Assembly: GCA_015067925.1 (NCBI GenBank)
Contig: SVLN01000015.1
Coordinates: 1 to 32,312 of the forward strand
DNA: 32,312 nt
Origin: Oscillospiraceae bacterium
GTDB taxonomy: Bacteria > Bacillota > Clostridia > Oscillospirales > Oscillospiraceae
Reading direction: 5' to 3'
The notes beneath the pieces were generated by a model. That model was not told where the DNA came from, searched no databases, and saw nothing but the letters and a program-made list of their open reading frames with translations. The position numbers and the translations under genes are program-made. How positions within the stretch are numbered: the stretch's first letter is position 1; each line of letters starts with the position of its first letter. Below are positions 19,101-24,502 of the stretch, piece after piece.

Positions 19101-19129
19101 TTTACATTTGCATTGAAAAATGGTATTCT
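19101..19129 (+). promoter_or_regulatory. Promoter for prfA-tsaC-coaE
   Basis: TTTACA (19101-19106), 17-base spacer, TATTCT (19124-19129) preceded by TGG (extended -10). Confidence 0.72.
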
Positions 19130-19158
19130 ATTGGAAGAAATCAGAAAGGAGCCGTACG

Positions 19159-20238
19159 ATGCTGGAAAAACTGCGATTGGTGGAGCAACGCTATGCCGAA
19201 ATGGCCGAGCGTACATCTCAGCCTGATTTTTATTCCGATGCCAAGGCAGCCGCGCGGCTGCTGAAAGAACAGAAAAGCCTGGAACCATTAATCAACGCAT
19301 ACCGGGCATACTTAAAAACGGATGCGGAGCTTTCCGATCTGCGTCAGATGCTGGACGGGCAGTTGGACCCTGAGTTCCGCGATCTGTGCCAGGAGGAGTT
19401 CCAAGCGGCCAAGCAGAAGCTTGCTGATCTGGAACAGGAACTCAAAATCCTGCTTTTGCCCAAGGATCCCAACGATGATAAGAACGTCATTGTGGAGATC
19501 CGCGCGGGCGTGGGCGGAGAAGAGAGCGCTCTGTTTGCCCACTCGCTGCATCGCATGTATTCTATGTATGCCGAGTCCCGCCACTGGAACGTGGAGCTTC
19601 TGAATCTGAACGAAACCGAACTGGGCGGCGTGAAGGAAGTCACCTTCTCCATTTCCGGTGAGGGTGCGTATTCCCGGATGAAGTTTGAAAGCGGCGTACA
19701 CCGCGTCCAGCGCGTTCCTGAGACGGAATCCGGTGGCCGAATCCACACCTCCACCGCCACTGTGGCTGTCCTTCCCGAAATGGACGAGGCCGAGGTGGAG
19801 ATTCGCCCTGAGGATGTGAAAATGGATGTGTTCCGCGCCTCCGGCGCCGGCGGCCAGCACGTCAATAAAACCTCCTCCGCTGTTCGTCTGACCCATATCC
19901 CTACGGGCACCGTGGTGGAGTGCCAGCAGGAGCGCAGCCAGGTGCAGAACCGCCAGAAGGCCATGAATATGCTGGCTTCCATCCTGTATCAGGCGGAACA
20001 GGAGCGCATCAGCAGCGCATACTCTGCCGACCGCAAGAGTCAGGTGGGCACCGGCATGCGCAATGAGCGCATCCGCACTTATAATTTCCCCCAGGGCCGC
20101 GTGACCGATCACCGCATCGGCCTGACCCTGTATCAGATCGAATCCATCATGGATGGCGATATTGACGCCCTGATCGACGCATTGGTAACCGCAGATCAGG
20201 CGGAAAAACTGCAGAGAAGTGAGATGGACCCCACGTGA
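19159..20238 (+). CDS. prfA: Peptide chain release factor 1
   Basis: RF1 reads UAA and UAG and triggers peptide release. The 359-residue length is standard. The stop-codon recognition tripeptide region reads Pro187-Glu188-Thr189 (PxT type, RF1), and the catalytic GGQ is at 231-233 in RASGAGGQHVNKTSSAVR. AAAGGAG precedes ATG 19159; the upstream in-frame ATG at 19120 lies in the promoter -10 region. It overlaps tsaC by 4 bases (GTGA). The RF methyltransferase gene prmC, usually next to prfA in Firmicutes, is absent here. Confidence 0.96.
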   Translation: MLEKLRLVEQRYAEMAERTSQPDFYSDAKAAARLLKEQKSLEPLINAYRAYLKTDAELSDLRQMLDGQLDPEFRDLCQEEFQAAKQKLADLEQELKILLLPKDPNDDKNVIVEIRAGVGGEESALFAHSLHRMYSMYAESRHWNVELLNLNETELGGVKEVTFSISGEGAYSRMKFESGVHRVQRVPETESGGRIHTSTATVAVLPEMDEAEVEIRPEDVKMDVFRASGAGGQHVNKTSSAVRLTHIPTGTVVECQQERSQVQNRQKAMNMLASILYQAEQERISSAYSADRKSQVGTGMRNERIRTYNFPQGRVTDHRIGLTLYQIESIMDGDIDALIDALVTADQAEKLQRSEMDPT

Positions 20239-21257
20239 ACACCCTGTTTTTACCCGCTGATGCCCCAAATACTGTAACTGTAGCGGCCGAGATCATCCGT
20301 TCCGGTGGCCTGGTGGCCATTCCCACGGAGACGGTCTACGGCCTGGGCGCCAACGGCCTGAATGAAGACGCCGTGCGCCGCATTTTTGAGGCCAAGGGCC
20401 GCCCTCAGGATAATCCTCTGATTCTGCACATTGCCAAGGCAGAACAGATGGAGGACTTCTGCGAGGATGTGCCGCGTGTGGCTTATGACCTGGCTGATGC
20501 ATTCTGGCCCGGTCCGTTGACCCTGGTGCTCAAGTGCAAACCCATCGTGCCCAAGCGCACTACGGCTGGCTTGGATACGGTTGCCATCCGCTGCCCGGAT
20601 CATGATGTGACCCGGGCCATCATTGCTGCCTCCGGTGTTCCTGTGGCGGCGCCGTCTGGCAATACCTCCGGGCGTCCCAGTCCCACGAAAGCCAGCCATA
20701 TGGTGGAGGACATGAACGGAAAAATCGAGGCCATCGTCGACGGCGGCAGCTGCGGCATCGGCGTGGAATCCACCATCCTGGATCTGACGGTGACGCCGCC
20801 CCGTCTGCTGCGTCCCGGCGGTATGCCGGTGGAAAAACTGGCACAGATCGTGGGCGAAATTGCCGTGGATGATGCAGTAATCCGTCCCATGAAGGAAGGG
20901 GAGAAGCCCCGTGCTCCCGGCATGAAGTACCGCCACTATGCCCCCAAAGCACCTGTTACGGTACTCACGGGCACCGGTGCTGACACCGCGGCCTATATTG
21001 CCGAGCAGGTTCAGCCGGGGGACGGCGTGATCTGCTTCCAGGAGTATGCGCCAATGTTCCCGGATTGTGTTGTGCAGCCCATTGGCGAAGAGGTCGATGA
21101 TCTGGCCCATGCCCAGCGGGTATTCGACGCACTGCGCGCCTTTGACGGCACCGATGTGCCGCGCATCTTTGCCCAGTGCCCGCCGGAACAGGGCCTGGGG
21201 CTGGCAGTGGCAAACCGCCTGAAAAAGGCGGCAGGCTTCCATGTGATTGCGCTGTAA
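20235..21257 (+). CDS. tsaC: L-threonylcarbamoyladenylate synthase (Sua5/YwlC type)
   Basis: The enzyme makes threonylcarbamoyl-AMP from threonine, bicarbonate and ATP for the t6A37 modification of tRNAs that read ANN codons. The N-terminal YrdC domain shows IPTETVYGLGANG (near 31), KGRPQDNPLILH and SGNTSGRPSPT. The 340-residue length includes the extra C-terminal Sua5 domain (about 225-340), so it is the long type. The GTG start overlaps the prfA stop as GTGA, indicating coupling. coaE begins 11 bases later. Confidence 0.95.
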   Translation: MNTLFLPADAPNTVTVAAEIIRSGGLVAIPTETVYGLGANGLNEDAVRRIFEAKGRPQDNPLILHIAKAEQMEDFCEDVPRVAYDLADAFWPGPLTLVLKCKPIVPKRTTAGLDTVAIRCPDHDVTRAIIAASGVPVAAPSGNTSGRPSPTKASHMVEDMNGKIEAIVDGGSCGIGVESTILDLTVTPPRLLRPGGMPVEKLAQIVGEIAVDDAVIRPMKEGEKPRAPGMKYRHYAPKAPVTVLTGTGADTAAYIAEQVQPGDGVICFQEYAPMFPDCVVQPIGEEVDDLAHAQRVFDALRAFDGTDVPRIFAQCPPEQGLGLAVANRLKKAAGFHVIAL

Positions 21258-21268
21258 GGGGTGACAGA

Positions 21269-23254
21269 ATGAAAATCATCGGTATCACCGGCGGCACCGG
21301 ATCCGGCAAGACCACGGCGCTGCGAGTTGTGCAGCGTTTGGGCGGCTGCGTGATTGACTGCGACGCGCTGTACCACGAAATGCTGAAAACGGATGAGAAG
21401 CTGCTTTCTGCCATCGATGCGGCCTTCCCCGGTGTAGTGCAAGACGGCGCACTGAACCGCAAAAAGTTGGGCAGTATCGTTTTCTCAGATGCAACTTTGT
21501 TGGAAAAACTCAGCGCTGTGACCGACCCCATCGTTCATGCTCGGGTTCTTTCAATTCTTGAAACAGAACAACAAAACGGCAGAACGCTTGCTGCGGTGGA
21601 TGCCATCCGCCTGCATGAGAGCGGCCTGGGAAAACTCTGCTGTGCAACGGTAGCCGTTACTGCGCCGGTAGAGGTGCGTGTGGCGCGCCTGATCGCCCGG
21701 GAGGGCATCACAGAGGACTACGCCAGAAGCCGCATTGCTGCCCAGAAGTCGGATGACGAGTTCCGGGCTCTGTGTGACTATGTGTTGGAAAACGACGCAG
21801 AGGAAGCTGCGTTTTCACAGCGCTGCGAGGCGCTGCTTAGCAAGATTTTAGAGGAGGATAATACCATGAGTGAAGGAAAGTTCAAGGCTGAGCGCGAGGC
21901 GCTGTTGTACGAGCCGAAGCACGGCTATGAGTCTCTGACTGCTGAGCAGGCAGCAGAAATGCAGGAGTACTGCAAGGCTTATATGCAGTTCATCGACGCC
22001 GGCAAGACCGAGCGTGAGTGCGTGGATGAGTGCATCCGTCAGGCCGAGGCCGCCGGCTTCGTGGCCTGGGAGCCTGGCAAGACCTACGCCCCCGGCGACA
22101 AGATCTACGCCAACAACCGTGGCAAAGCTGCGATTTTCGCCGTTGTGGGTTCTCAGCCCGCATCCGAGGGCGTGAACATCACCGCCGCCCACATTGACTC
22201 CCCGCGTCTGGACCTGAAGCCCAACCCTCTGTATGAAGAGGCCGAACTGGCTCTGTTCAAGACTCACTACTACGGCGGCGTGAAGAAGTATCAGTGGACT
22301 GTCACGCCCCTGGCCATCCACGGCGTTGTGACCCGCCGCGACGGCGAGACCGTCAAGGTCGTGATTGGCGAGGATGACAATGATCCCATCTTCTGCGTGA
22401 CGGATCTTCTGATCCACCTGTCCGGCGATCAGATGAAGAAGTCCCTGGCTGACGGTATCTCCGGCGAGCAGCTGAATGTTTTGCTGGGTTCTACTCCGTT
22501 GGAAGGCGACGAGGGCGGCGAGCGCATCAAGTTCCACATTCTCAAGCTCCTGAACGAGAAGTACGGCATCGTAGAGCAGGATTTCTACTCCGCGGAGCTG
22601 ACCATTGTCCCGGCTCTGAAGGCCCGCGAAGTGGGTCTCGATCGCAGCATGATCGGTGCTTACGGCCATGACGACCGCGTCTGCGCTTATGCTGAGTTCT
22701 ACCCCATGCTGAGCCTGGATACCCCGGACAAGACCGCCGTGTGCATCCTGGCCGATAAGGAAGAGGTTGGTTCCTCCGGCGTTACCGGTATGACCAGCCG
22801 CTACTTCGAGTATTTCATGGAGACCATCTGCGGCGGCTCTGCCCGCAATTGCTTCGCCAATTCCAAGTGCCTGTCCGCGGACGTCTGCAACGCCTTCGAT
22901 CCCACTTTCCCGGAAGTCTCCGATCGCCGCAACAACGCTTTCTTCAATCGTGGCGTGGGCCTGTTCAAGTACACCGGTTCCCGCGGCAAGAGCGGCTCCT
23001 CCGATGCGACCTCCGAGCTCGTTGGTTACTTCACCCGCCTGTTTGATCAGAACGGCGTGCAGTGGCAGATGGGCGAGCTGGGTCGCGTGGATCAGGGCGG
23101 CGGCGGCACCGTGGCTGCCATCATGGCAAACCGCAACATTGATACCCTGGATGCCGGCGTTCCTGTTCTGTGTATGCATGCTCCTTATGAGATCGTTGCC
23201 AAGTATGACTGCTACATGACCATGCTGGCCATGAAGGTTTTCTACAATGCTTAA
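21269..23254 (+). CDS. coaE: Dephospho-CoA kinase reading in frame into an M18 aminopeptidase
   Basis: Residues 1-199 are a full CoaE, the enzyme that phosphorylates dephospho-CoA in the last step of CoA synthesis: P-loop GGTGSGKT (8-15), DCDALYHEML, the family's middle domain and the AREGITEDYARSRIAAQ segment. No stop codon separates it from the M18 aminopeptidase, which begins at Met200 in the same frame, giving 661 residues in total. ATG 21269 has AAGGGGTG upstream. The linker LLSKILEEDNT holds a GAGGAGG for the aminopeptidase. A single-base loss in TTTT (21846-21849) would put TAG directly after Ile193 of CoaE and give two normal separate genes, so a sequence error or recent indel is possible. 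Real fusion or mis-annotation cannot be settled here. Confidence 0.8.
   Translation: MKIIGITGGTGSGKTTALRVVQRLGGCVIDCDALYHEMLKTDEKLLSAIDAAFPGVVQDGALNRKKLGSIVFSDATLLEKLSAVTDPIVHARVLSILETEQQNGRTLAAVDAIRLHESGLGKLCCATVAVTAPVEVRVARLIAREGITEDYARSRIAAQKSDDEFRALCDYVLENDAEEAAFSQRCEALLSKILEEDNTMSEGKFKAEREALLYEPKHGYESLTAEQAAEMQEYCKAYMQFIDAGKTERECVDECIRQAEAAGFVAWEPGKTYAPGDKIYANNRGKAAIFAVVGSQPASEGVNITAAHIDSPRLDLKPNPLYEEAELALFKTHYYGGVKKYQWTVTPLAIHGVVTRRDGETVKVVIGEDDNDPIFCVTDLLIHLSGDQMKKSLADGISGEQLNVLLGSTPLEGDEGGERIKFHILKLLNEKYGIVEQDFYSAELTIVPALKAREVGLDRSMIGAYGHDDRVCAYAEFYPMLSLDTPDKTAVCILADKEEVGSSGVTGMTSRYFEYFMETICGGSARNCFANSKCLSADVCNAFDPTFPEVSDRRNNAFFNRGVGLFKYTGSRGKSGSSDATSELVGYFTRLFDQNGVQWQMGELGRVDQGGGGTVAAIMANRNIDTLDAGVPVLCMHAPYEIVAKYDCYMTMLAMKVFYNA
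21866..23254 (+). CDS. M18 family aminopeptidase (internal start within the coaE frame)
   Basis: From ATG 21866 the product is 462 residues, the usual size for M18 aspartyl/leucyl aminopeptidases. GAGGAGG at 21851-21857 lies 8 bases upstream, so a stand-alone enzyme is expected whatever happens with the fused frame. Motifs: AHIDSPRLDLKP (His and Asp zinc ligands), LADKEEVGSSG (catalytic and zinc-binding glutamates), CNAFDPTFPEV, and the C-terminal CMHAPYEIVAKYD histidine. It is a cytoplasmic, two-zinc enzyme that trims N-terminal residues from peptides. A terminator begins 11 bases after the stop. Confidence 0.92.
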   Translation: MSEGKFKAEREALLYEPKHGYESLTAEQAAEMQEYCKAYMQFIDAGKTERECVDECIRQAEAAGFVAWEPGKTYAPGDKIYANNRGKAAIFAVVGSQPASEGVNITAAHIDSPRLDLKPNPLYEEAELALFKTHYYGGVKKYQWTVTPLAIHGVVTRRDGETVKVVIGEDDNDPIFCVTDLLIHLSGDQMKKSLADGISGEQLNVLLGSTPLEGDEGGERIKFHILKLLNEKYGIVEQDFYSAELTIVPALKAREVGLDRSMIGAYGHDDRVCAYAEFYPMLSLDTPDKTAVCILADKEEVGSSGVTGMTSRYFEYFMETICGGSARNCFANSKCLSADVCNAFDPTFPEVSDRRNNAFFNRGVGLFKYTGSRGKSGSSDATSELVGYFTRLFDQNGVQWQMGELGRVDQGGGGTVAAIMANRNIDTLDAGVPVLCMHAPYEIVAKYDCYMTMLAMKVFYNA

Positions 23255-23265
23255 ATGAAACAAAG

Positions 23266-23302
23266 AATCCCTCCCGGCATAAACTGGCCGGGAGGGATTT
23301 TT
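23266..23302 (+). terminator. Terminator whose right arm contains the next gene's ribosome binding site
   Basis: AATCCCTCCCGGC (23266-23278) pairs perfectly with GCCGGGAGGGATT (23287-23299) across an 8-base loop, and the T run spans 23298-23302. GGGAGGG (23290-23296) in the right arm is 6 bases before the M14 gene's ATG at 23303. Confidence 0.88.
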
Positions 23303-24502
23303 ATGGATATTCAGGAACTTGCTCTGCAGCGTGCCGGCGCTGCAGATTGGCGGACCTTTCAGCGAATGCAAGGCTTGACCGTCACGGGGGATATGGATCA
23401 GGCCACGCGTCAAGCGCTCATGCCGTATCTGGTGGGTTATACGACAGAGCGAATCCAGGCGGGGGATACGTTGTATCTGCTTGCCCAACGCTTTGGAACC
23501 ACAGTGCAAGCAATCAAAACAGCAAATCCCGGCCTACAGGAGAAGAACCTGCCGATCGGTCGGGTTCTGACAATTCCCCTGGTGTTCGATGTTGTACCCA
23601 CCAATGTGCCGTTTACATCCCAGGTGCTGCAATACTGCATTCGTGGACTTACCGCACGGTATCCTTTTCTGGCTGCGCAGGACATTGCACGTACCAAACA
23701 AGGAAAACCCGTGACGCTGTTGCGCGTGGGAACCGGTCCTCGCCGGGTGTTTTATAATGCCTCGCACCATGCAAATGAGTGGATCACAACGCCGCTGCTG
23801 ATGAAGTTTCTGGAAGATTGCTGCAAGGCAATTTCGATCTCCGGTCAAATCATGGATGTGGATGCAAAGGCGCTCTTTGCCGGGGTGAGTTTGTACATGG
23901 TTCCCATGGTAAATCCGGACGGCGTGGATCTTGTGACTGGGTTTTATGCTAAGAACAGCATGGTCTATCAGGATGCGCAGAGACTTGCAGAAAACTATCC
24001 TGCTATTGCGTTCCCGGATGGATGGAAGGCGAACCTCAATGGTGTTGATTTGAACCTGAACTATCCTGCAGGCTGGGAAGAGGCCAAACGCATCAAGGCA
24101 GAACATGGGTTCACGGGCCCTGCGCCTCGAGATTTTGTGGGTCTTGCGCCCTTGGATCAACCGGAGAGCGCTGCTATGGCGGAGTGGACCAAACGGATTG
24201 ACCCGGCGTTGACCCTGTCCTATCACACCCAAGGCAGAGTGATTTACTGGAAGTATCTGGATATGGAGCCGCCCGGCGCCAGGGAACTGGGAGAACTGTT
24301 CGGCCAGGTGAGCGGTTACGCCCTGGAGGATACGCCCTATGCTTCCGGTTTTGCAGGCTACAAGGACTGGTTCATCCAGGAGTATAACCGCCCGGGGTAT
24401 ACCGTCGAGGTTGGATTTGGGGAGAATCCGCTGCCCCTGAGCCAATTCGACGAGATCTATGAAGAGAATCTTGGAATCCTGATTTTGGGTATGACAGGCT
24501 AA
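23303..24502 (+). CDS. LysM and M14 metallopeptidase, likely gamma-D-glutamyl-diamino acid endopeptidase
   Basis: A 399-residue protein. About residues 1-45 look like a peptidoglycan-binding helix bundle (FQRMQGLTVTGDMDQATRQALM), about 48-95 is one LysM domain (IQAGDTLYLLAQRFGTTV), and from about 105 an M14 carboxypeptidase-type domain follows: HHANEW supplies the His and Glu zinc ligands, SYHTQG the third histidine and EVGFGE the catalytic glutamate. This layout matches the endopeptidase I type that cleaves the gamma-D-Glu to diamino acid bond of cell-wall peptides. No signal peptide is visible, so it may act in the cytoplasm on recycled muropeptides. ATG 23303 is chosen over ATG 23255, which would translate the terminator. 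Confidence 0.88.
   Translation: MDIQELALQRAGAADWRTFQRMQGLTVTGDMDQATRQALMPYLVGYTTERIQAGDTLYLLAQRFGTTVQAIKTANPGLQEKNLPIGRVLTIPLVFDVVPTNVPFTSQVLQYCIRGLTARYPFLAAQDIARTKQGKPVTLLRVGTGPRRVFYNASHHANEWITTPLLMKFLEDCCKAISISGQIMDVDAKALFAGVSLYMVPMVNPDGVDLVTGFYAKNSMVYQDAQRLAENYPAIAFPDGWKANLNGVDLNLNYPAGWEEAKRIKAEHGFTGPAPRDFVGLAPLDQPESAAMAEWTKRIDPALTLSYHTQGRVIYWKYLDMEPPGARELGELFGQVSGYALEDTPYASGFAGYKDWFIQEYNRPGYTVEVGFGENPLPLSQFDEIYEENLGILILGMTG

Follow-up and report, generated by a model that had tools for sequence, protein, structure and literature searches.

Does a reading frame that runs without a stop from one enzyme into another encode one protein or two, or is the open joint an error in the sequence? 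The question is raised by the window, the 32,312-nucleotide stretch of Oscillospiraceae DNA analysed here, in which positions 21269-23254 of the forward strand form a single open frame of 661 residues from the ATG at 21269 to the TAA at 23252-23254, with no internal stop. An initial annotation had described a dephospho-CoA kinase (CoaE) of 199 codons passing uninterrupted into an M18 aminopeptidase, with GAGGAGG lying 8 bases 5' of the in-frame ATG at 21866, and all of this was as described (Table 1). It had offered three outcomes: a purely bifunctional protein, a mixture of fused and stand-alone aminopeptidase through dual initiation, or an indel at the joint. The comparative sequence evidence favours the mixture. 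It is likely that this one frame would yield two proteins ending at one stop, a CoaE-M18 fusion and M18 alone, and the locus is best taken as two genes overlapping in phase, each with its start and both with the same stop.

Organisation of the locus and its domains

Table 1. Positions of the features in and around the CoaE-M18 frame of the window.
Feature	Positions	Strand	Evidence or remark
Sua5-type threonylcarbamoyl-AMP synthase	20235..21257	+	PF01300 207 bits, PF03481 107.1 bits
SD-like AAGGGGTGA 5' of CoaE ATG	21256..21264	+	sequence
CoaE (dephospho-CoA kinase) part, 199 codons, without own stop	21269..21865	+	PF01121, TIGR00152, P-loop
TTTT run suspected of an indel	21846..21849	+	relatives: not an error
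Internal Shine-Dalgarno GAGGAGG, duplex -11.8 kcal/mol, within linker E-E-D codons	21851..21857	+	
Internal in-frame ATG, predicted stand-alone M18 start	21866..21868	+	ATG in 40/40 fused loci, window counted
M18 aminopeptidase (PRK02256 type), 462 codons + stop	21866..23254	+	PF02127, NF002600
13-pair hairpin, then T run	23266..23299	+	called on - strand only; + strand: GGGATT, then TTTATGG

The Sua5-type gene, whose stop lies 11 bases 5' of the CoaE ATG, is the upstream neighbour of coaE and apparently belongs to the same operon, and it is this gene that other genera carry fused to CoaE; a release-factor gene (19120-20238) lies upstream along with it. The hairpin and T run behind M18 are likely the operon terminator. 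A listed open reading frame (23255-24502) starts directly after the M18 stop and runs through this terminator-like hairpin; it corresponds to a LysM + M14 carboxypeptidase gene whose true start is likely the ATG at 23303.

Both domains are complete. The CoaE part matched PF01121 at residues 3-178 (124.8 bits; curated cut-off 27) and TIGR00152 (110.6 bits; cut-off 65.55) and carries the P-loop GGTGSGKT, while the M18 part matched PF02127 at residues 241-659 (263.1 bits; curated cut-off 24) and, over its full length, NF002600/PRK02256 (634.9 bits; cut-off 529). HIDSPR, GHDDR, DKEEVG and MHAPYE, which we take to be M18 motifs, are all present in the latter. With loosened patterns, the P-loop was matched in 38 of 40 fused loci (misses, L016 and L053), HxD in 37 (misses, L044, L078 and L082) and four other motifs in all 40.

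M18 enzymes form multi-subunit (dodecamer) shells, and the best solved relative of the M18 part was 2glj, whose entry has 24 chains. In a structure model (20 sequences), the CoaE blocks had pLDDT values of 78-92 and residues 197-219 fell below 50, so this linker is read as loose; with CoaE predicted to be well formed on one side of it, both parts could fold. The M18 part was largely poorly modelled (mean pLDDT 66.9) and gave no basis for conclusions on M18 assembly.

CoaE was found as a single copy in the window's genome (G000), which is 77.7% complete, so that a second CoaE might have escaped detection. There was one CoaE per genome in 17/17 fused genomes searched, 10 of them at least 90% complete, and a second copy that would make the fused CoaE dispensable was found in none of the 17. 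The window's genome holds a second, distant M18-type aminopeptidase (L002; contig C23, 24862-25905; 29% identity), and a second M18 copy also occurs in many relatives.

Samples and definitions

The genus sample comprised about one genome per genus of the family, and was picked with nothing but the M18 part, which gives fused pairs no advantage. Matches were obtained in 102 of 109 genomes, and 96 genus representatives were read (94 first and two added later, one of which, G129, is a piece); additional genomes from a genus already represented (G001, G130, G131) were left out, as were those that yielded just a fragment or a paralogue (G017, G061, G082). Among the 96 there were 85 tight coaE-M18 pairs, six representatives with CoaE at least 200 bases away and five that lacked an adjacent upstream CoaE or lay at a contig end.

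A set of 155 loci was taken from the highest-scoring hits to the fused protein. Fused and in-phase pairs are over-represented in it, and frequencies are therefore taken from the genus sample only. It includes a few loci from other families of the order (L009, L016, L028, L029), one of which, L016, is the only one of its 40 fused loci from outside the family. Five loci that were not tight or had no start found were removed for the 150-locus tree. An SD was called strong when its duplex energy was -8 kcal/mol or better.

The open joint is not an indel

An indel in TTTT, by sequencing or assembly, would turn the locus into an ordinary gene pair. The run is a homopolymer placed at the joint, and the sequence confirms that with one T fewer TAG falls in frame directly after CoaE. 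However, the comparison with close relatives proposed in the initial annotation found the frame open in all three of the following. The nearest protein cluster, P0002 (five members), has a 661-residue representative that differs at one residue, on a contig of 10,577 bases; this residue and this contig are the grounds for treating it as a separate assembly. P0003, 84% identical overall, has the linker KILEEDTKTM where the window has KILEEDNTM, one codon longer, so that the reading frame has survived an in-frame change. Another genome of the window's genus, G001, has the same joint. Other relatives also hold the frame open, L061 is fused in a single-contig genome (G182), and 14 of the 85 tight pairs in the genus sample are fused. 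Against this evidence an indel is extremely improbable, and we rejected it.

M18 keeps its own start signals inside the fused frame

ATG was present at the M18 start of every one of the 40 fused loci, and a strong SD preceded it in 37 of 40, compared with 34 of 653 (5.2%) other in-frame ATGs of the same frames, a contrast that is somewhat favoured by taking as M18 start the best-scoring start codon from -75 to +30 bases (about 35 codons) around the expected site. Mean duplex energies were -10.1 kcal/mol at the 40 M18 starts and -3.4 at the 653 others. The three weakest SDs of the fused loci (-5.9 to -6.5) may mark poor starts. A strong SD was likewise found at 14/14 fused M18 starts of the genus sample, as against 17/214 other ATGs, and all 15 fused loci of a second collection had an ATG with an SD at -8 or better.

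These signals bear on the proposal that the frame encodes a single bifunctional CoaE-M18, its activities selected to be joined, with the internal SD a by-product of the linker peptide. The frame is open in all 40 loci, and LGG, LKG or KE, whose codons tend to resemble an SD, are frequent in the linkers. Yet when synonymous codons were shuffled over the seven residues that precede the ATG, the real SD on the whole exceeded what the peptide demands (combined p = 1.7e-10 for the 40 related loci; p = 0.0045 for the 14 genus representatives), which, together with the invariant ATG, speaks against a by-product. Taken singly, 12 of the 40 tests gave p < 0.05 and 28 did not; at L007, L110 and L114 the real SD was weaker than the mean for random synonymous codons, and at L016 it was nearly equal to that mean. 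Since the M18 SDs of non-fused loci were about as strong as those of fused loci, SD retention shows that initiation at M18 is needed, not that the fusion product is abundant. Of the features expected of a dual-start (phase-0 overlapping) gene, the locus shows a second start, in frame and preceded by an SD, within one open frame, and these internal signals are conserved among its relatives.

Sua5-CoaE fusions provide a control

At 33 of the 150 tree loci (e.g. L010, L019, L063, L069), Sua5 and CoaE are joined in a single frame. These fusions share the operon and the CoaE with the CoaE-M18 joint and likewise come from neighbouring genes, but they have lost their internal start signals: the CoaE start codon was missing near the joint in 10 of the 33, and a strong SD at CoaE was found in none of them, compared with 66 of 77 separate CoaE genes. 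On these features Sua5-CoaE looks like a single-product fusion. The loss of internal start signals that would mark CoaE-M18 as such a fusion was not found there. Because the Sua5-CoaE fusions drop these signals, the CoaE-M18 joint is of a different kind, and M18 apparently still needs its own start. Given this contrast and the ATG and SD counts, the purely bifunctional 661-residue protein of the initial annotation is unlikely.

The two joints did not occur together at any of the 40 fused loci. Two loci that looked like a triple Sua5-CoaE-M18 fusion (L032 and L047, frames of more than 1000 codons) were rejected as such, because the end of Sua5 lies at +1 relative to the CoaE start, the surplus being upstream open frame. 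In the genus sample, Sua5 fusion was found in 0/14 CoaE-M18 fused pairs and 29/69 others (Fisher's exact test, P = 0.0016, with ancestry ignored and before the last two loci joined). Among overlapping pairs, M18 fusion occurred in 0/16 with a Sua5 fusion and 14/29 without (P = 0.0006). On the tree, Sua5-CoaE fusions fall into clusters (8 changes), and the exclusion may therefore be due to ancestry.

The joint recurs among relatives

The 85 tight pairs of the genus sample comprised 14 fused, 10 in phase with an intervening stop and 61 out of phase. Overlapping pairs were spread over phases 0, 1 and 2 as 14/14/19, and the fused share of 14/47, about one third, is as expected from random phase (binomial P = 0.87 against one third, computed on the first 45 overlapping pairs, before the last two loci joined). 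The joint thus appears neither avoided nor clearly preferred, with no clear sign in these sequences of selection for or against it. Overlaps without a Sua5 fusion were fused in 14 of 29 cases, above one third though not significantly so (P = 0.11), which may reflect mild selection for the joint.

On the 150-locus tree, which consists mostly of high scorers, the fused state required a minimum of 19 changes, and well-supported branches forced 16 of these. The state was stable within some clades, such as a group of 8 loci with 7 fused. Such stability, and the 14 of 29, speak for selection of joined activities, whereas the phase counts agree with chance; with the start signals also against it, a protein selected to be bifunctional is improbable. 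CoaE-M18 is probably a joint that is tolerated rather than specially useful.

Fusions were also seen in the second collection, at 15 of 76 classified loci; it was limited to the 80 best loci out of 574 and is hence biased as well, four without a CoaE match were left uncounted, and its assemblies are partly shared with the first set. The fused records there are metagenome-derived or uncultured, many of them from gut or rumen.

The suggestion that no CoaE-M18 fusion was known held for the searchable literature, where none was found among open-licence papers, but not for sequence databases. A search with the CoaE part gave 766 matches, and of the 120 clusters listed, 38 carried both CoaE and M18 domains, the window's cluster counted. 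One database entry, P0104, is named simply 'aminopeptidase [Faecousia sp.]'. Other partners of CoaE among the same 120 clusters were Sua5 (PF01300) in one chain (52 clusters), a class III aminotransferase domain (PF00202; 28 clusters, e.g. P0004 and P0006, mostly of about 612-619 residues) and acetyltransferase domains (two clusters). In these bacteria, it seems, CoaE readily becomes fused to other proteins.

How one frame would give two proteins

Under the dual-start reading, ribosomes starting at CoaE would meet no stop, so that every one of them would carry on into M18 unless it slipped or dropped off. As the coaE gene found is the only one, CoaE would then exist only in an M18-tailed form of about 72 kDa. 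Initiation at the internal ATG by other ribosomes would give the 462-residue M18. Fused and bare forms would probably mix in the multi-subunit shell of M18, a guess from the kind of shell that M18 enzymes form. The likely origin is a drifting coaE stop that was lost in an overlap happening to be in phase with M18, the fused state being tolerated and likely acquired and lost time and again. M18 has presumably retained a start of its own because it is required separately from CoaE or in greater quantity.

A different outcome would follow if CoaE were freed, by programmed frameshifting or by proteolysis of the linker, leaving functionally two separate proteins. The other two frames stop near the window's joint (TAG 21849, TAA 21859) and the linker is predicted to be loose, which speaks for this, but no slippery site is conserved. 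In-frame X XXY YYZ heptamers were found at 4 of 40 joints and in 7 of 200 control windows from the same genes, a slightly higher rate made up of scattered sites with differing letters. A programmed frameshift was rejected on this count, and release of CoaE as a whole seems quite doubtful.

Bolder still, CoaE of this family might be stabilised by a tether to one operon neighbour or the other, the preceding Sua5 or the following M18, though not to the two together. In the latter case CoaE would sit on the surface of the M18 shell and tie the last step of CoA synthesis to the turnover of peptides, and the internal start would determine the proportion of decorated and bare subunits. The idea draws on the exclusion of the two joints (0/14 versus 29/69) and on mycobacterial CoaE, which is reported to need a partner at its C-terminus (PMC2765170). 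Many relatives have a free-standing CoaE, which argues against it, and we hold it to be a long shot. The dual-start overlap remains our preferred reading.

Comparison with known systems

Several bacterial genes are read from either of two in-frame starts to a single stop, among them those for CheA (long and short forms), IF2, ClpB and B. subtilis aspartokinase II. CoaE-M18 resembles them in having one frame with an internal SD and ATG, and a shorter product that is a complete functional unit. Unlike them, its long form joins two unrelated enzymes, and the pair are ordinary neighbours in related genomes, with many changes of state. One family offers a natural series in which the pair is separate, overlapping, in phase with a stop, or fused with two starts, and the Sua5-CoaE fusions, lacking an internal start, stand beside it as a control. 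The series lets one watch neighbouring genes turn into fused proteins, and allows a test of whether an enzyme of an essential pathway can tolerate a 462-residue tail without selection. It also carries a warning: a frame of this sort may be entered in databases as a single fusion protein even though a second product is likely.

PMC2542354 describes phase-0 overlaps as rare. In many non-fused relatives the coaE stop lies at +1 or +5 of the M18 ATG, a spacing within the short-distance geometry of termination-reinitiation studied in PMC10666635. Unlike these coupled pairs, the window has no stop, so that termination-reinitiation is impossible and de novo internal initiation would be required.

A known fusion is the mycobacterial CoaE-UPF0157, whose kinase part is reported to be produced in soluble form only with UPF0157 or GST attached at its C-terminus (PMC2765170). 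There too a C-terminal partner lies in the frame of CoaE, but in CoaE-M18 this partner is a peptidase of the M18 type that has a start site to itself, and the two-domain model NF002879 (CoaE-UPF0157, 395 positions) matched at positions 2-204 only, with 121.8 bits against a cut-off of 215. As far as our searches reach, the dual-start kind of gene is known, and what is new is the pair of enzymes, the recurrence of their joint and the control built into the same operon.
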